From: Xenophilus sp. AP218F
GTDB taxonomy: Bacteria > Pseudomonadota > Gammaproteobacteria > Burkholderiales > Chromobacteriaceae
DNA: 58,071 nucleotides
Assembly (NCBI GenBank): GCA_002213445.1
Contig: NJIE01000012.1
Location: forward strand, 1-58,071
Reading direction: 5' to 3'
Shown here: positions 6,607 to 53,190 of the stretch, piece by piece
How the letters are laid out: each line of letters starts with the position of its first letter
How positions within the stretch are numbered: the first letter of the stretch is position 1
The notes under the pieces: model-generated
Database searches by the model: none
The model's input: only the letters and a program-made list of their open reading frames with translations
What the model was told of the DNA's origin: nothing
Program-made: the position numbers and the translations under genes

Positions 6607-7554
6607 TTATCGTCTCAGCCAGGCATCGCGTTGCGCCGGCGTCATTTTCATCAATGCTGCCTCGGCTTCATCGCCGGTCAGGCGGTCCAGCGGATCGCTT
6701 CCGGCCGGCGTTTCGGTTTCGGCGGTCGGCACGGCCCCCAAATTGGGCGGCAATTTCGGCGCGGCCTTGGCCGGCGTGGCTTGTTCCGCCGGTTCCGCCT
6801 GAGCGTCTTTCGCCGGCTGGCCGAACTCCGCCAGCACCTGCGCGTGGGCTTTTTCCAGCACCTGGGCGTTGCTCAAGTGCGGCTCGGCCACGCCCAGCGC
6901 CCGCACCATGGAGTCCAGCGCGCCGATGCGCACCGAGTTGGGCTGGCCATTCGCAGACAGGTAGAACGCCTTGTTAGTCTGGTTGACGAAGGTGTCGCAC
7001 TGCGTGAACCAAGCCTGTTTTTCCTGCTCCAGCCGCGCTTGCGCCTGTTCTTCCGCTTCCTTGGCCCGGCGCATGTCGGCGCGCACGTCGCCGCGCTCGT
7101 CGCTCACCGCCCGGCGCTGCTGCTCGTACTCGGCGGCGGTCAGCTCGCCGTCGTCAAACGCCGCCGCCAGCTCATCCAGCCGGGCGTCCAGGGTTTTCAG
7201 CTCCTGCGCGAAGTCGCGGCCTTGCTCCTGCCCTTGCGTCGCCGCATCCGCCGCGGGCGTAGTCGCCGGTTGGGTCTGCGGTATGGTTTCATTCGGTATG
7301 GTGCCACTGTCTGCGGCGCTTGCGGGGGCGATTTGCGCGCTTTCCGCCGCCTGGCCGTCGTCAGCGCTCGCCGCCTGTTCGCCGTCGGTCTTCTGCTCCG
7401 GCTCCTCTTTGGCTTCGACGGACGCGCGGTGGATGTCGCCCAGGGTCATGTCGCTGATTTCGTCGTCGCCGAATTCGGTCTTCAGCGCTTCGACTTCGTC
7501 CGGGTTCAGCGTTTCCAGATGGGCCAGCAGGTTGTCGTCTTGCTCGATGGTCAT
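6607..7554 (-). CDS. Capsid scaffolding protein
   Basis: A 315-residue acidic protein rich in Glu, Gln and Ala, with a predicted long helix at ~115-175 ('ARLDELAAAFDDGELTAAEYEQQRRA'-type, abbreviated) and low-complexity flanks. Composition and position directly upstream of the capsid block match podoviral scaffolds, which guide procapsid assembly and are then released. Codons for residues 82-92 are written by a copy of the dispersed GGTATGG element (7278-7309). Confidence 0.65.
   Translation of the reverse strand: MTIEQDDNLLAHLETLNPDEVEALKTEFGDDEISDMTLGDIHRASVEAKEEPEQKTDGEQAASADDGQAAESAQIAPASAADSGTIPNETIPQTQPATTPAADAATQGQEQGRDFAQELKTLDARLDELAAAFDDGELTAAEYEQQRRAVSDERGDVRADMRRAKEAEEQAQARLEQEKQAWFTQCDTFVNQTNKAFYLSANGQPNSVRIGALDSMVRALGVAEPHLSNAQVLEKAHAQVLAEFGQPAKDAQAEPAEQATPAKAAPKLPPNLGAVPTAETETPAGSDPLDRLTGDEAEAALMKMTPAQRDAWLRR
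7278..7309 (+). repeat. Dispersed GGTATGG...GGTATGG-TG-CCA element, inside the scaffold gene
   Basis: Two GGTATGG half-sites 15 bp apart, followed by TGCCA. The G-rich strand is the strand opposite to the transcript. It is one of two clear copies within an open reading frame, where it encodes 'SGTIPNETIP'. Confidence 0.75.
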
Positions 7555-7598
7555 GGTATGCAGCCTTTCACGGGTTGAGGGTCAAGGTAACGATGCTG

Positions 7599-8096
7599 CT
7601 ACAGCAGCAGCTCCCAATCTTCTGCCAGAACGTCGGTCTGGCTGGCCAGCCAAGGCACGATTTTGCCGTCGGCGGTGCGCATGTCGATGTGCGGGCAGTA
7701 GTTGATTTCCGTGCCTTCAGGGTAAATGCCCAGCAGCGGCGGCCGGCTGACGTTGAAGCGGGAACCCGGCACCAAAAACAAGAACATGCCCTTGCCGTTC
7801 CAGCCCTTGCGCGCCACACGGTGGCCACGCTTCATAGCTTCGATGGCCAAACCGAAGGTCAACGCTTCAATCGGGCGGTAGGCTGCGTCGGCGGCTGCCT
7901 TCGGCGTCCAGCTGATGTAACCGCCGTGGCGCGAGTCGTTCGGCGCGCCGCCGTCGGTATACTCCACCAGATAGCCGGGGTCGTCGGCCTTCTCGCCTTC
8001 CGGCTGTTTCCAGCCGCGATACTCGTTGTATTCGCCGCGTGTCATCGGCGTCAGATTAACCAGTTTGGTGCCAAGATATCGGGCATGTTGGGTCAT
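7599..8096 (-). CDS. Tad2-like (DUF2829) protein, putative anti-Thoeris factor
   Basis: A 165-residue protein in two parts. Residues ~1-75 ('MTRGEYNEYRGW...GYLVEYTDGG...GYISWTPK') form a domain often fused to the second in phages. Residues ~78-165 match the DUF2829 pattern: 'TFGLAIEAMKRGHRVARKGWNGKG', 'MFLFLVPGS', 'HIDMRTADG', 'WLASQTDVLAEDWELL' (shortened). Known Tad2 proteins of this family bind the Thoeris cyclic ADP-ribose signal and block abortive defence. The start overlaps the portal stop (ATGA). The fold is clear; the anti-defence role here is inference. Confidence 0.75.
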   Translation of the reverse strand: MTQHARYLGTKLVNLTPMTRGEYNEYRGWKQPEGEKADDPGYLVEYTDGGAPNDSRHGGYISWTPKAAADAAYRPIEALTFGLAIEAMKRGHRVARKGWNGKGMFLFLVPGSRFNVSRPPLLGIYPEGTEINYCPHIDMRTADGKIVPWLASQTDVLAEDWELLL

Positions 8097-10294
8097 TGCG
8101 GCATCACTCCTGTTTGCGGGTCGGCGGGGTAATCCTGCGTCGCGCCCGGCGGCGGGTCGGCGGGGGAAATCTGGGCGGCTTGGCCGGACGGGTCGATCAG
8201 ACCGGCCTCGGCCAGCATCTGATCGGCGGCGGCGGCGATGCCCGGCGAGGCGGCCAGCTGGCTGGCGGCGGCCGTAGCGCTGGCCATCCCTTCCAGCCGC
8301 GTGGCGATGGTGTTGGCTTCGAGGCGGGCATTCTCGATGCGAGCCTTGTCCAGCTCCAGCGCCATTTTGTCCAGCGCCAGCTGGGCCTGTTTCTCGGCCA
8401 TCGCCTGCTGCCTGGCCGCCGCGGCTTCGGCCGCCTGCTGCGCCGGATCGTCCTTGCTCTTCGGGTCGGGGATGCCCAGCTTGGCGCGGATCTGCTTCAC
8501 CACCTCGTCGCGGTTTGGCAGGTCCATCATCTCGATCATCATCGGCAGCATCACCGCGGCCACGTCCGGCGGCATGCGCTGCAACAGCGCGCCCAGCGTC
8601 TCTACCATAGCCTGGCGGTAGCTGGCGCTGTACGGCGCTTCGTCTATCACGAAGTCGGCGCGGGTGCCGGCCACCTGCGACGCCGGTATGTTCGGGTCGT
8701 TGATCCGGGTGTACGCCGGCTCACCGTGCTCGTTGGTCAAGCGGAACACCTTGGCCTCGGTGTAGAACTGCTCCATCAACGCCAGTTGCTTCTCGCCCTG
8801 GATCTGGCGGGCAAAACGCAGATTGTCGAAATACAGGCTGGTTTGCAGGCTGCCTTGTTCCTGCCGGGCGGTGATGGCCGCCCCGCTCACCGCGTTGGTG
8901 CGCCGGCCCAGCAGCTCGTCGGTCACACCGCTGGTGGACTGGATCATCTGCGCCGACATTTGCATCATGTCCAGATGCGCGGGCGCCAGATTGCGGTCAA
9001 CGTCCAGCTGCAGTTGCTTGTTCGGTCTCTTGACGATGATGCCGTCCGGCCTTGCCACCTCGTCGGCCAGCACGTTGATATCCTCCACCGCGCCTTCGTC
9101 CATGATCACTTTTGTGGTGGCCAGGATGAATTGCGCCTTGGAGTGCTTCTTGTTGATGTCGTCCTGCATGTCGCGCAGGCCGCGCACCAGGCCGTAAGGC
9201 ATGCCGTCTCGCCCGCGGCGGTTTCCCCACACCGGGGTGTACGGGAAATCGTTGTGTCGGTACGGCGAGTCGCCTTGCCACAGCATGCCGCCGGCGGTGA
9301 AGTGAGCCACCTTCATGGTCTGGCTGAAGCGGTCTATCACGCTGAAGCCGGATTGCAGCAGCTTCACATGCTCGGCGTTGGCGGAGTCGAAGCGCTCGCC
9401 GGACGCCGGCCCGTTGCGAAACTGCATCCGGTACTCCGGCACCCGATACCAGCACTCGAACACCCGCACCCGGCGGCGGATGTGCATCGCGCTGGACGAA
9501 CGCACCGTGAAACCATGGCCGTCGAATTCGTCCTCGCGCATCACCTCGTCTTCCATGTCGTGCAGAACGCCGTACTTCACGCCGTTGAGCGCGGAACCTT
9601 CCAGCACATGCATGCGTTCTTCCGGCACCCGGTACAGCGCCGCGGCGATGTCCAGGTCCAGCATCTTGCTGCGGAACAGGTAGCGGGCGTCGGACAAATC
9701 GCGCCGGGCCTTGCTGTCATACAGCATTTCCCGCCACGGCACTGAGCGCGAGTAAATTTCCTCGCCGTCGTCGCCGTACTGCGCGCCATCCTCCAGCCAG
9801 CCCAGCCCGGCCACCACGGCGGAGCGGAAGGCCTCGCTGCGCTCGAACGGCAGGCGGTTGCTGTCCGACAGGTACTTGAGCAGCTGGGTCTTGATGTCGG
9901 CGCTCACGTTGTCTTCTTCGGTGCGCCCCAGCACCCGGTAGTCCACCCGCGTGCGCCGCTCGCTGCCCAGGATCCAGTTCACCGCCGGGCTGATGTGGTT
10001 GATGACGATGGGCCACTGGCCGCGATCGCGCAGCACCTGGGCGTCTTCGGGACTCCACTGCAGGCCGTCGTAGTAGTCCTCGTCCAGCGCCATTTGCAAG
10101 CGGTTGTCCGCCTGCCGGTCCATCTCCTGGCTGTATAGCTGCACCAGCCGGGTATGCAGGTCCAGCATGGCCTGGCTGTCGAGCGGATGCTCCGGCGCGT
10201 CGTCCGCCGGCGCGCCGTGGCGCTCGGCATAGCCGGCAATCGGGTCATGGGCCTCGACGCGCCGGGACTCGCGCAAATCGAATAGCCCGCTCAT
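8093..10294 (-). CDS. Portal protein, P22-like
   Basis: A 733-residue portal. Recognisable features are the early 'QWPIVINHISPAVNWILGSERRTRVDY' region (~95-120), 'SVPWREMLYD', 'FPYTPVWGNRRGRDGMPYGLVRGLRDMQDDINKK' (~330-365; both shortened in meaning here), and a C-terminal Ala/Gln-rich helical barrel and tail. It forms the dodecameric DNA channel at one vertex. The start chosen is ATG 10294, overlapping the upstream stop as ATGA; a longer frame to 10390 runs back over the neighbouring gene and is less likely. Confidence 0.85.
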   Translation of the reverse strand: MSGLFDLRESRRVEAHDPIAGYAERHGAPADDAPEHPLDSQAMLDLHTRLVQLYSQEMDRQADNRLQMALDEDYYDGLQWSPEDAQVLRDRGQWPIVINHISPAVNWILGSERRTRVDYRVLGRTEEDNVSADIKTQLLKYLSDSNRLPFERSEAFRSAVVAGLGWLEDGAQYGDDGEEIYSRSVPWREMLYDSKARRDLSDARYLFRSKMLDLDIAAALYRVPEERMHVLEGSALNGVKYGVLHDMEDEVMREDEFDGHGFTVRSSSAMHIRRRVRVFECWYRVPEYRMQFRNGPASGERFDSANAEHVKLLQSGFSVIDRFSQTMKVAHFTAGGMLWQGDSPYRHNDFPYTPVWGNRRGRDGMPYGLVRGLRDMQDDINKKHSKAQFILATTKVIMDEGAVEDINVLADEVARPDGIIVKRPNKQLQLDVDRNLAPAHLDMMQMSAQMIQSTSGVTDELLGRRTNAVSGAAITARQEQGSLQTSLYFDNLRFARQIQGEKQLALMEQFYTEAKVFRLTNEHGEPAYTRINDPNIPASQVAGTRADFVIDEAPYSASYRQAMVETLGALLQRMPPDVAAVMLPMMIEMMDLPNRDEVVKQIRAKLGIPDPKSKDDPAQQAAEAAAARQQAMAEKQAQLALDKMALELDKARIENARLEANTIATRLEGMASATAAASQLAASPGIAAAADQMLAEAGLIDPSGQAAQISPADPPPGATQDYPADPQTGVMPQ

Positions 10295-10764
10295 ACCCTT
10301 ACCTCGATCTGGTGCGCCACTTCGCCGTTGATCTTCAGCACCGCCTCGCCCACCGCGCGCTTGCCGTCCTGCTCGCCGCGGTCGCCGCAATACATCGACC
10401 AGTTCACCATCACGAACAGCCGATCAAGTCCATGCTGCACCACGTCGATGATCTGGCTGGCGGCCATCGGCGTGAACTCAAGCCCGAGCTGGGCCAGGCA
10501 CTGCGCCGTGGCGTGGGCGCACGTCGCCGGCGACACCGGGCGCTTGCCCTTGAACAGCTTCGGCAGCGCGCCGGGCGTGGCGAACATGTAGGCCTTGTCC
10601 AGCGGCACGATGAAGCGGGTGCCGGGCTTGATCGCCCGTTCGATGAACATCGCCGGCCGGTCATCCACCCAGCCGAAAGAGCGGATGAAACCGTGCTCGT
10701 GCTCGCGGTCCATCGCGCCATCCAGAATGCGGACGCGGTGCGCGCCCAGGCTCTGCACCTTCAT
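10291..10764 (-). CDS. Conserved-looking virion-operon protein of unknown function
   Basis: A 157-residue protein between the terminase/small-membrane genes and the portal. It has no recognised domain. It begins 'MKVQSLGAHRVRILDGAMDRE', has a beta-rich first half ('GTRFIVPLDKAYMF') and a helical middle, and contains two cysteines. SD GGAG lies eight bases before ATG, with a GGA-loop hairpin just upstream (10782-10795) and a dispersed element further up (10822-10843). It is translationally coupled to the portal. Confidence 0.6.
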   Translation of the reverse strand: MKVQSLGAHRVRILDGAMDREHEHGFIRSFGWVDDRPAMFIERAIKPGTRFIVPLDKAYMFATPGALPKLFKGKRPVSPATCAHATAQCLAQLGLEFTPMAASQIIDVVQHGLDRLFVMVNWSMYCGDRGEQDGKRAVGEAVLKINGEVAHQIEVRV

Positions 10765-10821: not shown

Positions 10822-10843
10822 GTATGGTCTGGTCTGGTGCCGT
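10822..10843 (+). repeat. Dispersed element, diverged copy
   Basis: GTATGGTCTGGTCTGGTGCC: three GGT units at 5-6 bp steps ending in GGTGCC. The match to the consensus is weaker. It lies in the gap upstream of the 10764 gene, with the same orientation relative to transcription as the other copies. Confidence 0.55.
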
Positions 10844-11153: not shown

Positions 11154-11423
11154 TCAGACGGGTTTGTAAAACGGCCACTGCGCCTCGAACCACGCGCGGG
11201 CCTTGGCGGGGCTTTCCTGATGCAGCGCGAAGGGCCGCTTCTTGCCCGGCCGCTGCGGGTCCGGGCCGAACAGCTCCCACTCGCCGCTGGCGTAGGCGAT
11301 GGTCCAGCCGCTGGGCTGGCCCTGAAATAGATGCTCATACCAGTAGCGGTCGCGCTTTTTCCAGACGCCGAAGGCCTCGGCATGGCCTGGCGCGGCAGGA
11401 TCGGACTTGTCGCTGTGGGTCAT
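11154..11423 (-). CDS. Hypothetical protein, 89 residues
   Basis: A small soluble protein rich in aromatic residues ('KKRDRYWYEHLFQGQPSGW', 'YASGEWELFGPD'), with a helical C-terminus. I recognise no family. No good SD precedes ATG 11423; instead the dispersed GGTATGG element lies 18 bases upstream. It is the first gene after the terminase large subunit. Confidence 0.5.
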   Translation of the reverse strand: MTHSDKSDPAAPGHAEAFGVWKKRDRYWYEHLFQGQPSGWTIAYASGEWELFGPDPQRPGKKRPFALHQESPAKARAWFEAQWPFYKPV

Positions 11424-11440
11424 GGCTGGCGGGGTGGTGT

Positions 11441-11464
11441 TGGTATGGTGTGGTATGGTGCCAT
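11441..11464 (+). repeat. Dispersed element between terL and the 11423 gene
   Basis: Two GGTATGG half-sites exactly 10 bp apart, followed by TGCCAT. It sits 18 bases upstream of the next start codon in the transcribed direction. Confidence 0.8.
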
Positions 11465-11480
11465 TTTTGGCCCGTTTGCG

Positions 11481-13010
11481 CTATGCCGTCCTGTGATTTG
11501 CCGGCCGGCGGGTGCGCTTCGGCATTTGCAGGCGCAACACCTCGTCAAAGCGCTGCGCAAACTGTCGGAATGCGTCCGAGCCGTGGCTATGCTCGTCATG
11601 CCGCGGCTGGGACTTCCAGACGCCCAGCGTCGCGTTCCAGTCCTTGCGGTAGTAGTCCAGGTGGCGGATGCCATCGGCGCAGCCGGCTTCGTCGAAATAG
11701 CAGTGCGGCAGCACCGTGCGCACGCTGCTGATGCCGGCCTGGATGTTGTCCACCCGCGGCACCACCTCGATATTGCGCATGCCCAGCTCCTCCAGCTGCA
11801 CCCGGATGCTCTTGTTGCCGTCGGCGCTCAGGCGCTCTTGCTCTGCATCGTGCGGCAGGTAGTGGCTGCCGAAGACATAGCCGGTATCCTGCAAATATTT
11901 CATGTAGTGCGACAGATCCTCGCCGCTTTCCTCGTAATAGCGGATGAAGCGATGCTCCATCCCCACCTGCTGGTGGAACCAGATCGCCGTGTTGTCGCTG
12001 GCACCCAAATCCCAGAAAGTGTTGACCACCACCCCCGGCACCCACGGTACTTTCCGGATGCGCCCATCGCGGCGCACCTGCGCCATCTGCGCCGCGTAAT
12101 AGCAGCCCTCGGTACTCACTTTGAATGCCTCCTCCGGCGTGGACGGGAACTCCTGCCACATCTTCTGGATGTCGCCCAGCTCCTGTAACTTCAGCTCATA
12201 CCACGCCCGCTGTTCCGGGCTGATAGCCCGCCCGATCTTGGACTCCAGCTCGTTCCAGTATTTGAGCCGGTCCTCTGACAGTTCCATGCCGGCCGGGTCC
12301 GCGACGTACTTCGGATCCTGCCACCACGCGAAAAAATGGACCTTGTACTGCTGCTTCTTCAGCGTCTTGCCCATCTGCTGCAGCTTCAGGCCTTCGGTTG
12401 TCATGCGGTAGAACTCGCCTTCCGCGCCTTCCGCCGTGCTCTCGATGAAAACCATGCCGTCGGCCTGCACCGTCGGCAGCGTGCCGGTGATCACCTCGCG
12501 CGCCCGGCCGGGGAACTCCTTGCACAACTTGCCGAACTCGGACACATGCAATATTTGCAGCGTGCCGGAGCGCAGCGACACCGCCACCCGCACCTGGCTG
12601 TTGTTGACCAGGCGCAGCGTGCCGCCGCTGCGCTTCACCGCCGGCAGGGCGTGGCGGATCACCGCAGGCAGGTGGTCATAAGCGAAAAGCAGCTTGTCGC
12701 TGAAAAAGTTTTCGGCGTCTTCCTTCTTGTGCGCGATCACGCCGCAGCGGATGTTGGGCGTGAACAGCATGCTGTCCAGTATGAAAATCTGGATAAACGT
12801 GGTGAAACCCAGCTGGCGGGCCTTCAGGATGATGTTGCGGTGCCAGAAGCGGCGCATGAAGCGGCGTTGCGCCCGGTTGGGCCGGAATTGCACCTCGTTG
12901 CCGTCCGCGTCCATGATCCAGTACAGGTTTTCCAGCCGCCAGAGCGGGTCTTTCAGCCGCTCGCCCAGCGTGGCCAGCGCGTCCGGCGGGAACGTGCTTT
13001 TCTCGCTCAT
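11481..13010 (-). CDS. terL: Terminase large subunit
   Basis: A 509-residue packaging motor. The ATPase half shows a variant Walker A 'LKARQLGFTT' (~62-71), a Walker B-like 'LHVSEFG' (~154-160) and 'VFIESTAEG' (~187-195). The nuclease half starts at 'NTFWDLGASDNTAIWF', whose Asp is the usual RNase H-like metal ligand. It cuts and pumps DNA into the procapsid. ATG 13010 is preferred because AAGGG lies seven bases upstream; a GTG at 13046 in the same frame has no SD. Confidence 0.9.
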   Translation of the reverse strand: MSEKSTFPPDALATLGERLKDPLWRLENLYWIMDADGNEVQFRPNRAQRRFMRRFWHRNIILKARQLGFTTFIQIFILDSMLFTPNIRCGVIAHKKEDAENFFSDKLLFAYDHLPAVIRHALPAVKRSGGTLRLVNNSQVRVAVSLRSGTLQILHVSEFGKLCKEFPGRAREVITGTLPTVQADGMVFIESTAEGAEGEFYRMTTEGLKLQQMGKTLKKQQYKVHFFAWWQDPKYVADPAGMELSEDRLKYWNELESKIGRAISPEQRAWYELKLQELGDIQKMWQEFPSTPEEAFKVSTEGCYYAAQMAQVRRDGRIRKVPWVPGVVVNTFWDLGASDNTAIWFHQQVGMEHRFIRYYEESGEDLSHYMKYLQDTGYVFGSHYLPHDAEQERLSADGNKSIRVQLEELGMRNIEVVPRVDNIQAGISSVRTVLPHCYFDEAGCADGIRHLDYYRKDWNATLGVWKSQPRHDEHSHGSDAFRQFAQRFDEVLRLQMPKRTRRPANHRTA

Positions 13011-13054
13011 GCGGCAGCCCTTCCACCCGTCAGCGGCCCGCGCCACACCGCACG

Positions 13055-14515: not shown

Positions 14516-15178
14516 ATGGCCATCACCCTGAAACTGTCCAACCTGACCGACAGCGCCGCCCCGCTTTACTACACCTACCCGCTTCAAAACAGCCCCCAGC
14601 CCGCCTACGTGCAGTTGAACGGCGACGGCACCGTGACCGCCGACTACTCCGGCGAAATCGGCAACGCCATGCCGGCTAGCGTCTGGCATGGCATAGATCG
14701 CCGCTACAGCGTGGACGCCAGTGTCAGCGGCAAGGCGCTGCTTGCCTATCTTGAGGGCGAAGGCCGCGCACTGCTGGATCGAATTCACGCTGGACATGAC
14801 GAAAAATGGAACGGCAACAACTACGTCGGCACTCTCGACGCCGATGCCAAGGTCGCCGAGGAACAGCTGATTCAAGGCCTGGAAACCATCCCGGACGCCG
14901 AGGTCTGGTCGGCTTACGACTGGCTGTTTTCCGGCTGCTGCTTGTTCGACCACTGGCAAGGCCGCCCGCTATCAGAGGCGGTTGCAGAATTGCAAAATCA
15001 GGTCGAGCCTGACGTCGAGCTGGATGGCAACATTGAAGATGCCTTGCTCAGGGCTGCTGAAATCGAGTTCGACGAGGACGGCGACGACAAACTAGACGCC
15101 CACCACCTGGCCGCACTGGTCGCCGCCGGCCGCATTACCCAAGAGCAGGCCAACGCCCGCAACGAGAGCGAAGACTAA
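14516..15178 (+). CDS. Hypothetical acidic protein, 220 residues
   Basis: Begins 'MAITLKLSNLTDSAAPLYYT' after SD AAGGAG. It is acidic throughout, with a beta-rich N-terminus and a helical C-terminus containing 'EIEFDEDGDDKLDAHH'. A Cys-Cys pair lies near residue 140. I recognise no catalytic motif. Its position in an operon ending in a KorA-like regulator suggests plasmid-type or lysogenic functions, but this is only context. Confidence 0.6.
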   Translation: MAITLKLSNLTDSAAPLYYTYPLQNSPQPAYVQLNGDGTVTADYSGEIGNAMPASVWHGIDRRYSVDASVSGKALLAYLEGEGRALLDRIHAGHDEKWNGNNYVGTLDADAKVAEEQLIQGLETIPDAEVWSAYDWLFSGCCLFDHWQGRPLSEAVAELQNQVEPDVELDGNIEDALLRAAEIEFDEDGDDKLDAHHLAALVAAGRITQEQANARNESED

Positions 15179-15185
15179 CCACGAC

Positions 15186-15204
15186 GCCCGGCCTCGCGCC
15201 GGGC
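15186..15204 (+). other. Hairpin after the 14516 gene
   Basis: GCCCGGC-CTCGC-GCCGGGC, with the same arms as the hairpin at 14450-14467. It opens the third leader repeat. Confidence 0.6.
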
Positions 15205-15246
15205 ATCCCTCAGACGCCGGCCGCCTGGCCCGGCACGCAAGGAAGC
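15198..15246 (+). repeat. Leader repeat, copy 3 (before 15250 gene)
   Basis: GCCGGGCATCCCTCAGACGC then a diverged arm (GCCTGGCCCGGCACGCAAGGA). The SD-proximal part is conserved while the middle has changed. Confidence 0.65.
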
Positions 15247-15249
15247 ATC

Positions 15250-15672
15250 ATGGCTGAAAAAAAATCGGTTTATATCTCGGACGAACTGGCGGCCGTCATC
15301 GGCAACCTGCCGGACAACGCCCCGCCCTCTCTGTCTGGCCGGCTCAACGCCATCGGCATCCGCTACGGCGAAATCATCGCCCGCGCCCTGCCTGACACGC
15401 TGGCGCGCTTCACCGCCGACGAACTGAACATGATCAAAATCGTGATGTGGACCACGGAAACGCTCACCAGCCCGCCCGGCCTACTGCTGGGCGGCCTCGC
15501 TCACAACCTGGCCGACAGCCAGGATTTCGAGCTGCAGGACTACCCGCGCGAGGCCGTGGACGCCTGCATCCAGAAAGCGCTGGCGCTGACGCCGGCCGAA
15601 GAGCTGGCGCTGGTGGAGTGGATAGAAGGCGTCAAGCACGGGACCGGGGCGGCGAGTGGCCTTCAAGACTAA
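15250..15672 (+). CDS. Hypothetical protein, 140 residues
   Basis: 'MAEKKSVYISDELAAVIGNLPDNAPPS' begins with a beta-strand plus helix that recalls ribbon-helix-helix proteins ('SVYISDELAAVI'), followed by a predominantly helical body. It could be a DNA-binding protein, but the family is not certain. Its 3' end overlaps the GTG start of the zinc-finger gene by 17 bases. Confidence 0.55.
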   Translation: MAEKKSVYISDELAAVIGNLPDNAPPSLSGRLNAIGIRYGEIIARALPDTLARFTADELNMIKIVMWTTETLTSPPGLLLGGLAHNLADSQDFELQDYPREAVDACIQKALALTPAEELALVEWIEGVKHGTGAASGLQD

Positions 15673-16591
15673 AGACCTTTCCGGCCAGACGTTCGGAAAG
15701 CTGCGGGTTTTGCGCCAGGCCGAACGCACCGCGAGCGGGCTGGTGCAGTGGTTGTGCCGCTGCGCATGCGGCCGGGAGGAAGTCATCCGCGCCGCGTATC
15801 TCACCGGCGGGCGCCACCCGCGCACGGAATGCACCGCCTGCCTCACGGCCCGGACCTGCCCGCAATGCGGCGCTCGCTTCACGGCAACAAAAGGCAACTC
15901 GACGTACTGCAGCCCGGAATGCAAACGACTCAGCCTGCTGGAAAGGCTGCGCGAACCGCCCAAGCCGAGAATCTGCAAGGCCTGCGGCTCGGAATTTCTA
16001 TCCTCCCGGCCCCGCAGCAGCTGTAGCGAGGCCTGCCATGCCGCCCTGCGCGCAGCAAGCGCGGCAGCCTACCGGGACCGCAACCGGGACACTCTGCGCG
16101 AACAATGGCGGCAAACGGCCCAAGCGAGGCGGGACCGCGACAAGGAAACCCCGGATCTGGCGCTGCGCGCCAGCGTGCGCAAAGCCATCGAGCGGCAAAT
16201 GCTGCGCCGGAAAACCGACGCCGAATACCGCGAGCTGCTCAAGACCCGCCGCGCGCTTTATCACCGCCGCAAAGTGGAGGCGGCCCGCGAGCAACAGCGG
16301 CATGGCATCGACGGCAAGGAGTTGCGCCAGTACCGCCAGTCGCTTGAGCATCAGCGGCGCTACTCGCAAGCCAGGCGCGACGCGCTGCGGCAAAACCCAG
16401 AGGCCTACCAGGCCTATCTGGACGCGATGCGCGAACATCGGCATCGCTGGTACATCAAGCTGCGCAATGACCCGCAGCGGCTGGCAGCGTGGCGCGCCAA
16501 ACAACGCGAGGCCGCGCGCCAGCAGGCGCTGGCGGGCTTGGCCAATGTCGGCCAGCAGCTGATCGAAAAACAGGAAACAAATCATGAGTGA
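15656..16591 (+). CDS. Multi-zinc-finger, basic DNA-binding protein
   Basis: A 311-residue protein from GTG 15656. Residues ~6-70 follow the 'DLxGxxFGkLxV...W.C.C.CG' pattern found beside phage HNH nucleases. CPQC (~68), a C...C knuckle (~85), CKAC (~108) and C...C (~122) make two further zinc fingers. The remaining ~190 residues are very basic and helical (Arg/Gln/Ala). No HNH active site is visible, so a nucleic-acid-binding role is preferred over a nuclease. Confidence 0.55.
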   Translation: MAFKTKDLSGQTFGKLRVLRQAERTASGLVQWLCRCACGREEVIRAAYLTGGRHPRTECTACLTARTCPQCGARFTATKGNSTYCSPECKRLSLLERLREPPKPRICKACGSEFLSSRPRSSCSEACHAALRAASAAAYRDRNRDTLREQWRQTAQARRDRDKETPDLALRASVRKAIERQMLRRKTDAEYRELLKTRRALYHRRKVEAAREQQRHGIDGKELRQYRQSLEHQRRYSQARRDALRQNPEAYQAYLDAMREHRHRWYIKLRNDPQRLAAWRAKQREAARQQALAGLANVGQQLIEKQETNHE

Positions 16592-17357
16592 ACTGATCCT
16601 GGCCGGCGAGGCGCTGCCTACGCCGGCCGAGCTGAACAACCTGAGCAGCCAGATGCTCCGCGAAGAGCTGGCCAAAAGCATCGAGCTGTCCGCGCGCCAT
16701 CTGATGCGGCTGGCCGCTATCTGGATGGAGCTGGAGCGCCGCGGCGAAGACCTCAGCGACCTGCGCGTCGGCCTCGCCGCCTACCTGCCGCACATCGCCG
16801 CCGGCCAGCTCAGCGCCGATGCCGTGCTGCGCTTCGCCGGCCAGCGCACCCTGCTCAACATGGTGGCCACGCTGCCAATCGACGAGCAACAGCGCTTGGC
16901 GCGCGGCGGCGCGGTCAAACTGCTGACGCAAAACCCGGATGGCGACATCGTGGAAATCGACACCCCGGCCCATGCGCTGACCGCGGCGCAAGTGCGCCAG
17001 GTATTCGACCAGGGCAAGATCCGCACCCCAGCCGAGCAGCGCCCGCGCCTGCAACTCCACGCCGCCAAGCCGAAACCGAAAGCGCGGGAAGCCATCCACT
17101 ACCACCCCTCCTCTGGCGTCGTCAGCATCGGCCGCAAGCGCGTGCCGCTGGCCGACATCATCGCCGCGGTTTCAGCCTCCAAAATCGCCGCGCCGCAGGC
17201 GGAAGAGGGAGAGGAGCGCAAGCCCCTGCCGCCGCTTCCGGTCACACCGGACCAACATCGCGCGCTGCGCATCCACGCTGCGCGCACCGGGGAAACCATG
17301 ACCGGGCTGCAGCTGGCGGCGCTTCACGCCCTCGGCCTGCTGACGATCGAGGAATAA
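16584..17357 (+). CDS. Hypothetical protein, possibly plasmid-partition or regulator related
   Basis: A 257-residue protein overlapping the upstream gene by eight bases. Residues ~20-115 are helical, with 'ELERRGEDLSDLRVGLAAYLPHIAAG' (in part) and 'LPIDEQQRLARGGAVKLL'. A proline-rich linker follows, and the C-terminal ~35 residues are a separate helical unit. It lies immediately before the KorA-like gene, with three bases between stop and start. No family is assigned. Confidence 0.55.
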   Translation: MSELILAGEALPTPAELNNLSSQMLREELAKSIELSARHLMRLAAIWMELERRGEDLSDLRVGLAAYLPHIAAGQLSADAVLRFAGQRTLLNMVATLPIDEQQRLARGGAVKLLTQNPDGDIVEIDTPAHALTAAQVRQVFDQGKIRTPAEQRPRLQLHAAKPKPKAREAIHYHPSSGVVSIGRKRVPLADIIAAVSASKIAAPQAEEGEERKPLPPLPVTPDQHRALRIHAARTGETMTGLQLAALHALGLLTIEE

Positions 17358-17360
17358 AGC

Positions 17361-17570
17361 ATGTCCCCTGAACTGTTTGAAGTCCTGGCCGGCAAGGAAG
17401 TTGTCGGCGTATCAGGGAGAAGCCTGGAAGCAGCCCGATTGGTCCTGCTGGAGAACATAAGCAACAAAGAGGCCGCCGAGCGGATCGGCGTGGATCCGTC
17501 CATCACCTTCCGCCAGGTCAAGCGCATTCGGCGCGCCTATGCAGCCCTGCTGCCCTTCCTCAAGCCCTAA
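17361..17570 (+). CDS. KorA/TrfB-like transcriptional repressor
   Basis: A 69-residue protein. 'LEAARLVLLENISNKEAAER' continuing into 'IGVDPSITFRQVKRIRRAYA' follows the KorA/TrfB helix-turn-helix pattern (IarGVLVdGkpqa-fA-slG-tr-aVsqaVhRvwaA). KorA of IncP plasmids dimerises, binds a GTTT...AAAC palindrome and represses replication and partition promoters. This genome has a TrfA-like initiator, a ParA and dispersed GTTTGG-TG-CCAAAC sites, a matching set of partners. It ends the rightward operon just before a terminator. Confidence 0.65.
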   Translation: MSPELFEVLAGKEVVGVSGRSLEAARLVLLENISNKEAAERIGVDPSITFRQVKRIRRAYAALLPFLKP

Positions 17571-17602: not shown

Positions 17603-17649
17603 CATTGCCGCGCAGGCAAAACAAAAGGGCGCTATCGCGCCCTGATTCT

Positions 17650-17693
17650 GGTATGGTCTGGCACCATTTATGCGGTATGGTCTGGCACCATAC
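17650..17693 (+). repeat. Dispersed element, tandem pair of palindromic copies
   Basis: Two copies of GGTATGGTCTGGCACCAT 24 bp apart. Each has inverted arms TATGGT / ACCATA around a 5-bp centre. They lie between the KorA-like gene and the convergent 17668 gene, and encode the end of the latter. Confidence 0.8.
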
Positions 17694-17883
17694 TTGCACC
17701 GTGCTGGGACTCGACCTGTTTGCGAGCCAGCGACAGCCCGCCAGACATCAGCGCCGTGTCCTGCATGCCCTCGGCCGACCCCACGAACTCGATCACCAGC
17801 TCGCCATCCACCACGGCAACCACCGCGGCCGACTGAACCAGACCGTCTTTATCCAGACCTGCAAAACGCTCAAATGTATTCAT
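17668..17883 (-). CDS. Hypothetical protein, 71 residues, CI-controlled
   Basis: 'MNTFERFAGLDKDGLVQSAAVVAVVDGELVIEFVG' (shown in part) is a compact alpha/beta protein of unknown family. ATG 17883 is preferred to 17892 because AAGGA lies eight bases upstream. Its last codons ('ASMVPDHTA') are made by the dispersed repeat. A promoter with two repressor-operator-like sites lies upstream, so it is probably silent in the lysogen. It is the last gene of the leftward early block. Confidence 0.55.
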   Translation of the reverse strand: MNTFERFAGLDKDGLVQSAAVVAVVDGELVIEFVGSAEGMQDTALMSGGLSLARKQVESQHGASMVPDHTA

Positions 17884-17930
17884 ACAAACCATCCTTTTAT
17901 GCCGAGGTGCTGAATGCTATTGTCTCGCAG

Positions 17931-18698: not shown

Positions 18699-19416
18699 GT
18701 CGTCCCTTTCTCTTCGCCTGCTCCAAATCGTTCACCCGCCTGGCCACCAGACCCGCCCCGAACCCCTCCGGGTGGCGCTCTTTCAACTCCTCCACCACCA
18801 GGAACAAATCGTCGTCGCTCTGCGCCAGCAGCCCCGGATATTTGGTCTTCAGCTGCGGCATCGAACACGCCACCCCCCAACTTCGCAGCAGGCGGCACAC
18901 GGCTGCCGTTCGCTTCGCCGCGTCAGACGGCTCCGGCAGCGGCGGCAAGGGCGCGTCAGCGCCCAAATCGTCATTGCTGCTGCTAGGTTGTGCCTTGGTG
19001 GGTGATGGTGAAGGTGAAGGGCAATCATCCGGCAATGCTCCGTCGCTGCTATGAGCATTGCTGCCAGCTTGCTTGCCTTTCCTCCAGCGCTTGTTGGCCG
19101 CGTCGCGCGCCTTCTGTTGCCGGCGCGCGGCGTTGTCTGTCGCGACAGACAGCTCGGCGTCCACGCGCTTGTGCCGCCAGACGCCGTCGCCTACCTGAAA
19201 CAGCCGCGAAAGCGTCGGACGATGGCGCTTCCACTGCGCCGTGGATAAGCGGCACACGTTCGCCAGCGCGCTGTCGTCGTCGGGCAAGCTGCCGTTTCGC
19301 CAGTAATCCATGATCAGCAGCAGGTAAGCGCCGTGCTGCTCGGTCGTCAGCCTGGCAGTGTCGGCCAAATAGTCCGCGATATAGAGCGGCATCCACACAT
19401 CGGTTTTGCGCGTCAT
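18601..19416 (-). CDS. DUF1376-type replication protein (O-like)
   Basis: A 271-residue protein from ATG 19416, with SD AAGGAGG ten bases upstream. The N-terminal ~95 residues ('VWMPLYIADYLADTARLTTEQHGAYLLL', in part, and 'SLPDDDSALANVCRLS') fit the DUF1376 domain found in phage and prophage initiators. A Ser/Pro-rich linker and a helical C-terminus follow. Paired with the P-like gene it should start lytic replication. I looked for origin iterons inside the gene and saw none that were convincing. Confidence 0.65.
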   Translation of the reverse strand: MTRKTDVWMPLYIADYLADTARLTTEQHGAYLLLIMDYWRNGSLPDDDSALANVCRLSTAQWKRHRPTLSRLFQVGDGVWRHKRVDAELSVATDNAARRQQKARDAANKRWRKGKQAGSNAHSSDGALPDDCPSPSPSPTKAQPSSSNDDLGADAPLPPLPEPSDAAKRTAAVCRLLRSWGVACSMPQLKTKYPGLLAQSDDDLFLVVEELKERHPEGFGAGLVARRVNDLEQAKRKGRHGEDSKTGTGGSRAARAFAELTRASGGRVIDV

Positions 19417-19943: not shown

Positions 19944-19947
19944 TGGC

Positions 19948-19970
19948 GGTATGGTTTGGTATGGTGCCAT
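19948..19970 (+). repeat. Dispersed element between convergent 19915 and 20000 genes
   Basis: Two GGTATGG half-sites 10 bp apart followed by TGCCAT, identical in layout to 49435-49457. It lies beyond the stop of the cro-like gene. Confidence 0.8.
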
Positions 19971-19999
19971 TAAGCCCAAAAAAACGAACCGCCTCGCGG

Positions 20000-20245
20000 T
20001 CAAGCATCGTGCGTTCCCCCCTCGATCAGCTCCTGGTGGGTCAGCGGCACGCGCGCATGCACTGCCGCGCGGATCAAATCTTTCAGCACATCGCCCGGCA
20101 GCCGGTTCCGATCCGCCCAGGCCGCCACCGTTGAACGGTTGTAGGCGTGCCCGGTCACGCTGGACAGCGCATTGGCCACCGCCGTCGGCCCGCCAAAACG
20201 GGCAAGCAGCAGGGCAGCCGGCTCCAGATGTCTTTTGCTAGACAT
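20000..20245 (-). CDS. Cro-like DNA-binding protein
   Basis: An 81-residue protein. Residues ~12-55 form a Cro-type helix-turn-helix: 'LLARFGGPTAVANALSSVTG' then 'YNRSTVAAWADRNRLPGDVL', with the 'V..W..R..LP' pattern common to this group. It is divergent from the CI-like repressor and its promoter contains operator C, the standard lytic/lysogenic switch. The SD region AGGAGGATAAGGG precedes ATG 20245. Confidence 0.75.
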   Translation of the reverse strand: MSSKRHLEPAALLLARFGGPTAVANALSSVTGHAYNRSTVAAWADRNRLPGDVLKDLIRAAVHARVPLTHQELIEGGTHDA

Positions 20246-20270
20246 AAGCCCTTATCCTCCTGTTCGGCAC

Positions 20271-20299
20271 ATTGTTTGCATTTTGCGAACACCTGTCAA
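20271..20299 (-). promoter_or_regulatory. Leftward early promoter (PL-like) with CI operator C
   Basis: On the minus strand, TTGACA, a 17-base spacer and AACAAT. The spacer and -10 box are filled by the operator TGTTTGCATTTTGCGAACA (20273-20291). It drives cro and probably O and P. Confidence 0.75.
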
Positions 20300-20350
20300 G
20301 ACGCCCAATTACAATAACCAGTTATTTTGACTACGCAACAAGGGGAAACC

Positions 20351-21013: not shown

Positions 21014-21036
21014 ATGGCACCATACCATACCAAACC
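21014..21036 (-). repeat. Dispersed element upstream of the 21060 operon
   Basis: On the minus strand, repeated GGTATGG units run into TGCCAT. It lies 24 bases upstream of the first start codon of the rightward operon, between operator D and the SD. Confidence 0.8.
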
Positions 21037-21059
21037 GAACCAGCAGGGGAGGCGTGACC

Positions 21060-21296
21060 ATGAAGCAAACTGCACTGCAAGTAGTTCCGTTTCAAACCAC
21101 GCGCCAGGCAGGTCAGGGCGAGGCGCTGCAAGCCATCGGGCAGCTGTCGAGGCTGCTGCGTCGGCCAATCGACGACAGCATCAGCATGCGGGAATTCGGC
21201 CAACAGGCGGCCGCCATCGGCTGCCGCGTGCGCCAGCAGGGCGGGGCGCTGGTGCTGGTGCCGCAACTGAAAATCATCGGAGGCACCCATGCGTGA
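21060..21296 (+). CDS. Hypothetical protein, 78 residues
   Basis: First gene of the rightward early operon, SD GGGGAGG, ATG 21060. 'MKQTALQVVPFQTTRQAG' leads into helices ('LQAIGQLSRLLRRP'), then a short strand-rich end. There is no recognised family, though its second half resembles the protein two genes on (21378-21644: 'AAAIEQLSRMRLSV'), hinting at a duplication. Controlled by CI and by the dispersed element. Confidence 0.6.
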   Translation: MKQTALQVVPFQTTRQAGQGEALQAIGQLSRLLRRPIDDSISMREFGQQAAAIGCRVRQQGGALVLVPQLKIIGGTHA

Positions 21297-22286: not shown

Positions 22287-22309
22287 TGGCACCAAACCAT
22301 ACCAAACCA
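22286..22309 (-). repeat. Dispersed element between DUF3164 and HTH genes
   Basis: On the minus strand GGTTTGGTATGGTTTGGTGCCAT is read (10-bp steps of GGT). It begins at the DUF3164 stop codon and ends 18 bases before the next ATG. Confidence 0.8.
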
Positions 22310-33041: not shown

Positions 33042-33075
33042 AAGGTAATCATCCTGCGTGGGTAAGAATTAGTTC

Positions 33076-33091: not shown

Positions 33092-33103
33092 ACTTTTTTT
33101 AAT

Positions 33104-49370: not shown

Positions 49371-50765
49371 TCAGCGCTGGGCGCGCGGATCAAACAACGG
49401 AGGCAAGCCCTTAGATGCTGTATTGGGTTGATTCGGTATGGTTTGGTATGGTGCCATTTTGCCGCCGGACACGCCACCGCTTCCCACGCCCGTGGCGGCC
49501 AATTCCTGATTGATGCGCGCGTTCTTTTGCGCCGGGTCCATCTGGGCAAAGCCCTCCTCGTTCTCCATCAGCTGGCGGTAAATCTGCATGCGGGCGCTAT
49601 CCGGGTTCAGCGGCCGCGGGGTTTCCTGTCCATGCCTGAATTGCTCGCGGATATCGTCCTCGCTGAAGATGCCGGAGGCGCGCAAGTCGCGGATCTTGCG
49701 GCCGGTCTCGCCCGGCAGCGCGTCGCGCGCCTGCGCTTCGGTGATGTTGTTTCTCGATCGGGCGTCTTCCACGGCCAGGCTGTTGCCCAGCTCCAGTTTC
49801 TTTTTCACGACTTCGTGCTTCAGCTTCTGGCTGCCTTCGGCCAGGCGCGTGGCCGCATCGGCGGCAGACTTCTCCTGCTGGCGCCGGCGGGACCAGTCCA
49901 GCTCGAAAAACTGCGGCTCGGACAGCGCGCTCAAGCCCAGCTCGCGCACCGCGTCGCGGTCGATGAACTGGCTGAACGTCTGGTCGCCGCGTTGCAGCTT
50001 GACGTTGAAGCCCAGCACATTGTTCTTGGCGTCGCGCACCACTTCCTTGCTCAACGGCGTCACGCCGTCGTCGTATTGCGAATACAGCTGCATCACGCCG
50101 TCGGCCGCGCGCTCGAAGTCGCCCATCTGCGCCGCCCGGTACGCGCCGCCCCAAATCTTCAGCCGCTTGTTGGCGTCGTCCTTCTGCATCCACTTGTTCC
50201 ATGCCTCGGCCTTGTCGGCGTCGCCCTGCTCCACCAGCTTTTGGTAAATGCGCGGCGCGGCCTGCTTGCGGAAAAACTCCATCACGTCCGGCGCGTTGGC
50301 CTCGGCGTGGGCCTGCGCCTGTTCCTGGTCGGCGAACAGCTGCTTGCCGGACTGGTACGCCGTCGCGGCGGGCATGATGCCGCTGGCGCGGGCCGCCTGG
50401 CTTGCCGCCTGCCGCTGCTGGCTGGCGCTGATCAAGTCGTCCGGGGCGGGCGCGATGCTGCTGGTTTGCGCCGGCGCGCCGATGCCGGCGGCGCGGGTGG
50501 CCACCCGTTGCAGGCTCTCGCCTATCGCGTCGTTCACCGCCGGCGGCGGGGGCGCTTGCACGCTCATTTGCTCAGGCGCGCCCATCTGCACCGGGGCGGC
50601 CTGCCGGCCGATGAAGGCCTGACGCGCCGCCTTGGCCTCCTGCATGCCCTGCTCGCGCAGGTCATCCAGTTTCTGGTTATTCATCGCGCTCTTCATGGCC
50701 AAGCCCAGTTGCAGCCCTTGCGCCGCGCCGTTGAGCAGGCCCGCGCCGAAATGTCCCAGGTTCAT
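49371..50765 (-). CDS. Internal virion / DNA-ejection-type protein
   Basis: 464 residues. The Gly/Ala N-terminus 'MNLGHFGAGLLNGAAQGLQL' with a helical, Gln/Ala-rich body and coiled coils fits podoviral internal core proteins. It lies immediately upstream of the giant polyvalent protein, as do inner-core proteins in related phages. The last ~30 residues contain 'KMAPYQTIPNQP', encoded by a dispersed GGTATGG element. SD GAGGA precedes ATG 50765. Confidence 0.6.
   Translation of the reverse strand: MNLGHFGAGLLNGAAQGLQLGLAMKSAMNNQKLDDLREQGMQEAKAARQAFIGRQAAPVQMGAPEQMSVQAPPPPAVNDAIGESLQRVATRAAGIGAPAQTSSIAPAPDDLISASQQRQAASQAARASGIMPAATAYQSGKQLFADQEQAQAHAEANAPDVMEFFRKQAAPRIYQKLVEQGDADKAEAWNKWMQKDDANKRLKIWGGAYRAAQMGDFERAADGVMQLYSQYDDGVTPLSKEVVRDAKNNVLGFNVKLQRGDQTFSQFIDRDAVRELGLSALSEPQFFELDWSRRRQQEKSAADAATRLAEGSQKLKHEVVKKKLELGNSLAVEDARSRNNITEAQARDALPGETGRKIRDLRASGIFSEDDIREQFRHGQETPRPLNPDSARMQIYRQLMENEEGFAQMDPAQKNARINQELAATGVGSGGVSGGKMAPYQTIPNQPNTASKGLPPLFDPRAQR
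49435..49457 (+). repeat. Dispersed element inside the end of the internal virion gene
   Basis: Two GGTATGG half-sites 10 bp apart followed by TGCCAT, in the last 30 codons of the gene and ~75 bases before the giant-gene terminator. Confidence 0.8.
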
Positions 50766-51521: not shown

Positions 51522-52438
51522 CAGTACGCCACCGCCCCGGCCATGGCCAGGCCGCCGATGCCCTGCCCCCACGCCGCGCCGTTGGCCGCTTCCGCCTGTT
51601 GCGCGGCATTGTAGGCCTGCACCTGAGTGCCGTACTGGTTGCCGTAAATGCTGCCGGCGGCGCTGTGGCCGCTGATCCCGCCCTGAAAACCCTGCGCCAT
51701 GATGTTGTTGTTGCCGCTCCACGCCGCTTGCGCCGCGTTGATGTTGCCCACCGCCGAATTGCCGGCGTTCAGCCCCACTCCGTAGGACGCGGCGGCGGTG
51801 CCGGGCATGTTGCGGCCGAAACTGGCGGCGTCCTTGCGCAGCATCACCCCCATGGTCCGCACCTTGTCGCGGGCGCCGTTGGCGGCGGCAGCGGTCCCCA
51901 GCGCCTCGTCTATGGCGTCGCTGTTGCTGGCGGTCTGGTAACGCCCGGAAGTGGGCGCGACGCCCATCCGCGTCATAGCCCTGTCCTTGGCCGCCTTGCG
52001 CAGCGCTAATTGGGCGCTGGCCTCGGCAGTGGCTTCGCCGGCCGCCTGGCTTTGCTTCTCGGCGCTGTCGTAGTTGGCAGCCTCTTCCGCCATGCGCTTT
52101 TCCATCGGCTGGAAGGTGGACTTGTAGAATTCATCCGCCTCCCGCCCGCGCTGGTTGTTGGCGCGCATGGCATCCAGCTGGGCTTGCGTCACCTGGTTGC
52201 CCAGCGCGTCTATCGCGGCCTGGCGCTGGTTGCCGATGTTGAATTGCTCGCGGCTGAATTGCAGCCAGTCCTTGCCCAGCTGGGCGTTCATCATCGCCGC
52301 TTCGCCCATGCGCGGATCCGGCGCGGGTGCGCCGCCGCCGCCGCCACCCTTCTTGTGCAGTCGCCGGCCGCCGCCGGGCAGCCGTTCCGGGCCGCCGGGG
52401 TGCATCCCCGGCATGGTAGCAATCAGTTCGTCTAGCAT
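51521..52438 (-). CDS. Virion structural protein with Gly-rich head
   Basis: 305 residues from ATG 52438. The N-terminal Gly/Lys stretch ('LHKKGGGGGGAPAPDP') precedes a helical body, and the C-terminal ~90 residues are rich in Ala, Gly, Asn and Gln. Composition and place beside the internal core protein suggest an internal or ejection protein. It overlaps the GNAT gene by seven bases. Confidence 0.6.
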   Translation of the reverse strand: MLDELIATMPGMHPGGPERLPGGGRRLHKKGGGGGGAPAPDPRMGEAAMMNAQLGKDWLQFSREQFNIGNQRQAAIDALGNQVTQAQLDAMRANNQRGREADEFYKSTFQPMEKRMAEEAANYDSAEKQSQAAGEATAEASAQLALRKAAKDRAMTRMGVAPTSGRYQTASNSDAIDEALGTAAAANGARDKVRTMGVMLRKDAASFGRNMPGTAAASYGVGLNAGNSAVGNINAAQAAWSGNNNIMAQGFQGGISGHSAAGSIYGNQYGTQVQAYNAAQQAEAANGAAWGQGIGGLAMAGAVAY

Positions 52439-52868: not shown

Positions 52869-53147
52869 TTACACCGTGATTTCGCCGTTCTTCTTGAAGT
52901 GCTGGTACAGCCGGTCATGCAGCATGAGCGACAGCGGCTTGTCCGCCTCGTCCTTGCCCGGCGGCGCGGCCAGCAGGGCGGAGCCGATGTCCGGCGGCAG
53001 GTAAAGCTGCTTGGCGGCCACCAGAGTGAACGCGCCGTTCTCCTGGCTGCCGATCGCATACTGGCAACTCACCTCGCCGGCGGAGCCGATCGAGACATTG
53101 GACAACGAGCCGAACAAGGGAGTGGTGATGGGTTTCATGGTAGTCAT
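52869..53147 (-). CDS. Hypothetical virion-operon protein, 92 residues
   Basis: 'MTTMKPITTPLFGSLSNVSI' then a beta-rich body and an amphipathic end ('LYQHFKKNGEITV'). SD AAAGGAG precedes ATG 53147, with the dispersed element just upstream. No family is recognised; a tail accessory protein is likely from position. Confidence 0.6.
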   Translation of the reverse strand: MTTMKPITTPLFGSLSNVSIGSAGEVSCQYAIGSQENGAFTLVAAKQLYLPPDIGSALLAAPPGKDEADKPLSLMLHDRLYQHFKKNGEITV

Positions 53148-53160
53148 AGGTAACGCTCCT

Positions 53161-53190
53161 TTGGTATGGTTTGGTGTGGTTTGGTGCCAA
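53161..53190 (+). repeat. Dispersed element before the 53147 gene
   Basis: GGTATGGTTT, GGTGTGGTTT and GGTGCCAAT: three GGT units at exact 10-bp steps. It ends 14 bases upstream of the start codon. Confidence 0.8.

Follow-up and report, generated by a model that had tools for sequence, protein, structure and literature searches.

To our knowledge, genome-wide silencing by a block to transcription elongation is known in detail from one phage group only. The stoperators of cluster A mycobacteriophages such as L5 and Bxb1 are numerous sites that lie mostly away from promoters, in short gaps and in one orientation, and they are thought to work by blocking elongation; some relatives of L5 are extrachromosomal and carry parABS (PMC6550527 and PMC9283540, in the excerpts available). 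We describe here a dispersed repeat element in a 58,071-nucleotide contig (NJIE01000012.1, hereafter the window), one contig of the 3.98-Mb host assembly of Xenophilus sp. AP218F (GCA_002213445.1). The elements are real, conserved, similar in kind to regulator sites and stoperator-like in layout. From their arrangement we consider it likely that they act at the DNA level as sites for a regulator, with a role in blocking elongation. We propose more tentatively, as a reading that falls somewhat short of an even chance, that they are binding arrays for one regulator of this phage-plasmid, most likely a KorA-like helix–turn–helix (HTH) protein, and serve both as operators and as elongation roadblocks.

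All twelve places named in the original prediction carry the element, giving 14 copies when the doubles at 17650 and 33076 are counted (Table 1). Read along its G-rich strand, each copy consists of successive 5-bp units followed by TG and an inverted unit, so that the whole is a head-to-tail array of 5-bp half-sites followed by a 2-bp spacer and one inverted half-site. There are one to five head-to-tail units per arm, of the form TWTGG in the window and YATGG in the 74-kb Chromobacterium phragmitis plasmid NZ_CP029555.1, the only close relative found by our searches; the spacer is CA in place of TG in the 17649 and 17673 copies. The form first proposed, GGTWTGG-TG-CCAWACC, holds if its dashes are separators, as we take them to be because reading them as any base gave only two matches, at chance level; the true unit, however, is the 5-bp half-site array. 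Likewise, the added half-sites had been placed at 10-bp steps, but the actual step is 5 bp, 10 bp being every second unit, and at this step successive units are turned to opposite sides of the helix. As to the full palindromes reported at parA, the copy at 33076-33091 is a perfect one of 16 bp, and the sole perfect one, whereas the 33106 copy departs from it by one mismatch, as do those at 31885 and 29384. When units ending in GG were counted, leaving out the 10822 and 17649/17673 copies, the 13 arms of the window held 40 units, with T as first base in 34, A or T as second in 34 and T as third in 35; the 11 arms of the C. phragmitis plasmid held 44, with C or T first in 38, A second in 33 and T third in 34. 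One copy in the latter (56698-56740) consists of seven GG units without an inverted half-site.

The element is strongly enriched over chance. A search with GGTWTGGTGCCAWACC, allowing up to three mismatches, gave 16 matches, whereas 100 shuffled sequences gave 1.06 on average and never more than 5. These matches fall at 12 places, namely 11 of the 14 copies (four of them matched on both strands) and 54504; the copies missed were those at 7278 and 10822 and the first at 17650. Scoring the core together with its 5-bp arms gave 13 sites; the 40 first-order Markov controls averaged 0.28, and none had more than one. The sites scored 10-17, with the 10822 copy below threshold, and since the best control reached 11, the three weakest (17683 and 33110, both 10, and 17659, 11) are not distinctive alone. 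Of the 12 occurrences of the 12-mer GGTNTGGTGCCA in the host assembly, 11 are in the window and a single one is in the remaining 3.92 Mb, while a backward control pattern occurs three times in the whole assembly. Among 399 genomes of the order, the stacked pattern was present in three, the host and two with one copy each; its backward control was present in two, again with one copy each.

The elements are also retained in the relative, where arrays, judged by eye, occupy 10 of the 12 matching places: in the equivalent of gene 6607-7554, in the gap between the DUF3164 and HTH_92 genes, in the convergent gap by the lysis genes, following each of terL, the cro-like gene and the cI-like gene, and ahead of the recombinase region, parA, the DarB-like gene and gene 52869-53147. 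Those without a counterpart are the 10822 copy and the 17649/17673 pair, and the C. phragmitis plasmid has two extra arrays of its own (5424-5461 and 20346-20363). Because protein identities between the replicons are mostly 40-85%, the arrays have outlasted much of the surrounding DNA. Upstream of parA, the C. phragmitis plasmid carries CATACCAAACCATGCCG before the same TATACTCC (by eye). The orthologue of gene 6607-7554 in that plasmid holds two copies (codons 109-124), and the mid-gene copy encodes SGTIPNETIPQ in one orthologue and DGTIANNGTMPSHAAS in the other; these differing residues point to selection on the DNA there. A morphogenesis block is present twice in the C. phragmitis record, arrays included (approximately 4-11 kb and 63-71 kb).

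The placing of the copies is equally non-random. Eleven of the 14 are mainly intergenic, compared with 10.8% of the window, and in the C. phragmitis plasmid, with its duplicated 60-73 kb block left aside, 8 of 12 are so placed, compared with an expected 7.4%. As had been proposed, some copies stand just ahead of start codons, four of them at 15-18 bases, and the G-rich strand faces against transcription in seven of the eight asymmetric copies in codirectional gaps, the exception being the 29378 copy already singled out in the original prediction; this count excludes three asymmetric copies in convergent gaps (17650, 17674 and 19947) and three two-sided ones. In the C. phragmitis plasmid all nine copies in codirectional gaps are oriented alike, a count that excludes the duplicated 60-73 kb block and 3 of the 12 copies (one two-sided, two in divergent gaps) and in which orthologous copies are not independent of those in the window. 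Apart from the 29378 copy, transcription of codirectional genes runs through the inverted unit before it reaches the array.

A fixed orientation relative to transcription, together with the four copies ending shortly before start codons, would also suit a sense-strand (UACCA)n repeat in mRNA leaders, bound by an RNA-binding protein that blocks translation. However, the 33105 copy lies upstream of the parA –10-like box, and hence outside the parA mRNA, as does its counterpart in the relative, and there is no start codon on which the two-sided, convergent-gap and mid-gene copies could act (none lies downstream of those at 17649, 17673, 19947 and 31884), which makes this explanation very improbable. 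Dispersed, polar and conserved gap sites could equally fit a structural or replicative role (nucleoprotein folding, fork arrest or packaging) instead of one in transcription, but the orientation follows transcription on both strands, the 21015 and 22287 copies being reversed together with their + strand genes, and two copies stand before parA; we give such a role only a slim chance. No promoter-like match was found close to the copies in the four stretches scanned, at a chance level of 0.3-1.1 per region, and this is a weak test, since the scan also missed the TATACT before parA.

Table 1. Element copies and genes discussed in the text. For element copies, the strand given is that of the transcription which the copy faces under the orientation rule. 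Positions relative to genes follow a gene model of the window made for this analysis, in which some boundaries are approximate; 'relative' denotes the C. phragmitis plasmid.
Feature	Position	Strand	Remarks
Element inside gene 6607-7554 (codons 83-93, low-complexity linker)	7278-7306	-	
Degenerate element TATGG TCTGG TCTGG TG CCG	10822-10841	-	58 bp before gene 10291-10764; not found in relative
Element in gap between terL (11481-13046) and gene 11154-11423	11440-11465	-	18 bp before start of 11154-11423; relative 12151-12187
Element with CA spacer, convergent gap after KorA-like gene	17649-17668	-	None seen in relative
Second copy of 17650 pair	17673-17693	-	Overlaps 3' end of gene 17668-17892
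Element directly downstream of cro-like gene 20000-20245	19947-19971	-	Relative 19206-19240
Five-unit element after cI-like gene	21015-21042	+	15 bp before next start codon; relative 20257-20292
Element in 40-bp gap between DUF3164 gene and RsaL-like HTH gene	22287-22309	+	Relative 21253-21278
Reversed element before tyrosine recombinase 29565-30533 (+)	29378-29399	-	Relative 33250-33272, normally oriented
Two-sided element, convergent gap between toxin-antitoxin region and lysis genes	31884-31911	.	Relative 35995-36017, also two-sided
Perfect 16-bp palindrome, divergent gap before parA	33075-33092	.	
Second parA copy	33105-33120	.	Ends 5 bp before TATACT (–10-like, by eye)
Element upstream of 4570-aa DarB-like gene	49434-49458	-	Overlaps 3' end of 49371-50765; relative 51558-51595
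Five-unit array	53160-53191	-	15 bp before gene 52869-53147; relative 56698-56740
KorA/TrfB-like HTH protein, 69 aa, without dimerisation domain	17361-17570	+	Best candidate binder
cI-like XRE protein	20351-20950	+	Rival candidate binder
RsaL-like HTH_92 protein	22327-22728	+	Rival candidate binder
ParA-like ATPase	33214-33906	+	Two element copies in its upstream region
Small protein between parA and trfA	33909-34295	+	Rival candidate binder; ParB-like position
TrfA-like replication initiator (plasmid state)	34298-35155	+	

Three proteins had been named as possible binders, the KorA-like protein, the XRE protein and the protein encoded at 33909. The first emerges as the best candidate, whereas the other two are weakened by having homologues in related phages whose searched stretches gave no element. 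Given that the elements are DNA-level sites with an elongation-blocking role, we judge it fairly probable that they are bound by the 69-aa KorA-like protein; this choice is a motivated guess. Close homologues of the protein were found only in the two element-bearing replicons: a tblastn search with the relative's protein found only its own plasmid among 72,556 plasmid records and nothing in 50,697 phage records, and neither KorA-like protein had a match in 56 other loci. KorA was the best match of a two-row profile in the Protein Data Bank (PDB; E 0.027). KorA binds with its two HTH domains on opposite sides of the DNA, Gln53 making contact with the T8, A9 and G10 base pairs and Arg48 with G5 (PMC4889941, in part). 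Both phage proteins have an arginine aligned to Gln53, albeit in a low-scoring alignment, and the shift of half-site from TTTAG to TWTGG/YATGG parallels this replacement, so that the change at residue 53 may correspond to the change in half-site. KorA-family proteins are described as binding direct and inverted repeats with spacers of 0 to 6 bp (PMC9723621, in part). Of six KorA loci of other genomes that were checked, one from a genome of the class (L156) has Gln at the position of residue 53 and an upstream palindrome, TTTTAGCCGCTAAAA, another (L159) has the protein without a palindrome, and no case with Arg53 was found.

A number of observations weigh against the KorA-like protein as the binder. 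The match to the Pfam KORA model is 16.6 bits for the window protein and 23.2 bits for that of the relative (its best match), both below the cut-off of 26.7. The window protein scores higher with DUF134 (22.4 bits), and its NCBIfam matches are to DUF134-like and sigma-factor models, all below cut-off. PDB matches to KorA have E values of 0.03-0.06, the AlphaFold model is poor, and a fold search with it gave no match at E ≤0.001, with KorA chains only among the weak ones. Both proteins (69 and 68 aa) end after the HTH domain, without the C-terminal dimerisation domain. KorA Arg48 is lost in both, the other recognition-helix residues differ between the two despite near-identical sites, and the RK2 KorA half-sites abut, whereas those of the element are separated by 2 bp. 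The co-occurrence of protein and element is thin, because only two element-bearing genomes are known, and the 68-aa tblastn query would miss distant KorA proteins; weaker KorA-like matches were in fact present in the host, on another contig, and in 3 more of the 300 genomes of the order that were searched, and the one examined has a different recognition helix. Finally, the 29378 copy faces the wrong way. The gene preceding the KorA-like gene (16584-17357) has a weak ribbon–helix–helix match at the C-terminus of its product in both replicons (E 0.06-0.08) and no match in the Bcep22-like genomes tested, and could possibly encode another DNA-binding protein.

The protein encoded at 33909 might instead be a ParB-like centromere binder, with the elements as dispersed centromere sites that also silence nearby genes, on the pattern of phage N15 or the omega protein of pSM19035. 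It is located where a ParB-type partner would be, two element copies lie upstream of parA, no match to ParB_N/KorB was found in the window at E 0.001, and by eye residues 53-90 resemble a ribbon–helix–helix motif. A single-sequence model (mean pLDDT 67) showed a long helix and no strand in place of that motif. The protein has no significant Pfam or NCBIfam match and belongs to a PHROGs family of unknown function, its homologue in BcepIL02 (41% over 59 aa, E 1.5e-5) occurs in a phage with no element found and no annotated parA, and centromere sites need no orientation relative to genes. We therefore regard the centromere explanation as a minor possibility. In phages with homologues of the rival proteins, our search for the element took in the whole of BcepIL02 and 50 kb from each of Skulduggery and PEp14, and was negative throughout.

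A further candidate is the RsaL-like HTH_92 protein, which would bind the arrays and act as a repressor of several operons, its own among them. The two replicons share its recognition segment, QSGGSRYESGR, without any difference, and this segment resembles that of RsaL. In both, one array fills the gap before the gene, and RsaL sites carry TATG/CATA (TATGnAAnTTnCATA). Two findings tell in its favour and so also against the KorA-like protein: an RsaL site mapped by footprinting in the leader of rhlI includes, within 26 bp, the sequence CTGGTATGTC, which is similar to TGGTATGG (PMC11139201, in part), and among 29 loci of other genomes four have GGTATGGT ahead of the HTH_92 gene, a density of 4 in 9.7 kb upstream of HTH_92 genes compared with 5 in 73 kb of background. 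However, these four loci (G283, G192, G253 and G117) come from one genus, and six further loci of the family, including the host's copy, are without it. The spacing of the RsaL palindrome, by inspection, does not fit; the palindromic element has TATG-N4-CATA. Upstream of the 29 HTH_92 genes of other genomes TATG-N8-CATA was absent, and nothing general was found there as an autoregulatory motif. HTH_92 matches occur in 149 of 349 genomes of the order, with the same full recognition segment in 28 of the 29 loci (the 29th is cut off), yet the stacked pattern is present in only three of 399, and homologues occur in BcepIL02, Skulduggery and PEp14, whose searched stretches gave no element. We consider it unlikely that this protein reads the arrays. 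In four loci of one genus (L074, L077, L081 and L083), ACCATACC, which resembles two array units, lies near a TATAAT-like box upstream of the HTH_92 gene.

The cI-like XRE protein would be the expected lysogeny repressor, and its HTH domain is conserved in both replicons; a model for such a rival is gp71, reportedly the stoperator-binding repressor of L5. The homologues of the XRE protein in BcepIL02 and PEp14 again belong to phages with no element found in the stretches searched, and the region between the cro-like and cI-like genes (20246-20350), where XRE operators would be expected, contains no copy, so we hold it highly unlikely that this protein binds the arrays. The cI/cro-like genes form a separate switch at 20000-20950, and because its control region is free of arrays, a second repressor circuit probably exists, with the arrays as a second layer.

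Returning to the KorA-like protein, we can outline how such a system, which in the original prediction would let one protein silence the whole genome in the plasmid state, would work. If it is expressed from its own operon (14516-17570), in which the core/arm scan revealed no array, the protein would first bind at the inverted pair and from there extend along the direct units, the HTH units lying on alternate helix faces at half-turn steps. At parA the bound array would block initiation, and in the intercistronic and convergent gaps the arrays would stop RNA polymerase molecules already under way; in the plasmid state the late and lysis genes and some of the early ones would thereby be kept off. 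The block would probably be polar, as with stoperators, because transcription reaches the inverted half-site first and then the array. In its boldest form, which we think doubtful, the proposal is that a betaproteobacterial phage-plasmid independently evolved a genome-wide stoperator system from a KorA stripped to its HTH domain, which nucleates on the inverted pair, assembles head to tail on half-turn 5-bp repeats and forms a polar roadblock that is stronger or weaker according to the number of units.

We assign the replicon to the phage-plasmids on its gene content, since plasmid-type genes (TrfA and ParA) occur together with virion genes. The window encodes a TrfA-type initiator, ParA, a tyrosine recombinase, the RsaL-like HTH protein and the cI-like XRE protein, and its virion genes, including that of the 4570-aa DarB-like protein, are related to those of Bcep22-like podoviruses. 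A tail-gene reading frame is open to both contig ends, with frames that match, which fits a circular molecule; no terminal repeat was found at the ends. The near-identity DNA searches of phage and plasmid collections used window positions 1-25000 as the query. In viral contigs, searches with TrfA, the 33909 protein, XRE and ParA found nothing beyond the window itself, and a TerL search gave 46 loci including the window, the best of the others being 48% identical and all 45 lacking the element. Scans of viral contigs with the stacked pattern (four stretches, two of them the window itself) and with the palindrome (nine stretches) gave at most one site per locus outside the window, and such single sites were taken as chance or unrelated. 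ParA searches of genome contigs found 25 distant loci, with no element in the stretches examined.

Some other features of the sequence deserve mention. Terminator-like hairpins lie beside the 31884 and 19947 arrays (31799-31824 and 19987-20001, respectively), and by eye similar hairpins adjoin other convergent-gap copies. Inverted arms with a 6-bp spacer, CAACTTCCGATAA-CCCACC-TTATCGGAAATAG, precede the tyrosine recombinase gene (29326-29357) at a distance of 20 bp from the 29378 element; the site looks like the crossover site of that recombinase, the pattern scan classes it as terminator-like, and a similar one is found in the C. phragmitis plasmid at about 33215-33246. Downstream of trfA, TGACTCAAAACAG occurs eight times (35153-35498), seven times in one direction; these repeats are probably TrfA iterons and were not found in the C. 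phragmitis plasmid. Contig C6 of the host carries a KorB-like gene and a KorA-like match (28478-29047 and 31415-31543), and a second Kor-type element may thus live in the same cell. A 2.17-Mb Neisseria gonorrhoeae record, NZ_CP119140.1, is filed as a plasmid and is chromosome-like by size.

If the proposed function is correct, the elements would be a second, unrelated case of silencing by elongation block, in a phage-plasmid of Gram-negative bacteria, and the strategy would have evolved repeatedly. The 69-aa candidate protein and its arrays of graded length would then offer a small system for the study of polar roadblocks, and a link between plasmid Kor circuits and phage immunity.

Among the matches listed from the open-licence PMC literature, judged by title and the start of the abstract, there was no description of such arrays in a phage of this type. 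Arrays of short direct and inverted units are known from the omega/parS heptads of pSM19035, and dispersed centromere sites on a phage-plasmid from N15; these consist of 7-bp units and single inverted repeats, respectively, in contrast to the 5-bp arrays described here, and are bound by partition proteins. The likeness to Kor operators drawn in the original prediction stands in so far as a KorA-like protein is present and is the best candidate binder, but the RK2 KorA operator is absent (GTTTAGCTAAAC had one match in the window with two mismatches, at chance level) and ParB_N/KorB had no match on the window contig at E 0.001, its matches lying on host contigs C6, C11 and C42. In common with the KorA operators of IncP-1 plasmids (RK2/RP4), which are global repressor sites, the elements lie on a replicon of the TrfA type, and the KorA half-site TTTAG is one base from TTTGG (PMC4889941, in part). 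However, the IncP-1 KorA sites are 12-bp palindromes at promoters, whereas here there are arrays, most of them apparently away from recognisable promoters, and the IncP-1 KorA has the dimerisation domain that the KorA-like protein lacks. ArdK of IncW/IncN plasmids belongs to the KorA family and recognises direct repeats, with inverted ones also tolerated, but its crystallised operator has, next to the –35 box, two TTGACA repeats with a 10-bp step, and the excerpts of that report describe no arrays (PMC9723621). The likeness to L5 in layout, in contrast, extends to sites spread genome-wide in short gaps, with one orientation relative to transcription and conservation in a relative. The L5/Bxb1 repressor is a monomer with an HTH and a stoperator domain, and no such protein was recognised here among the matches of the regulators scanned. 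L5 and Bxb1 have 20-30 single asymmetric sites of 13-14 bp per genome, whereas the present replicon has 14 variable 5-bp arrays with an inverted half-site; as with the stoperators, these are copies of one motif dispersed over a phage genome.

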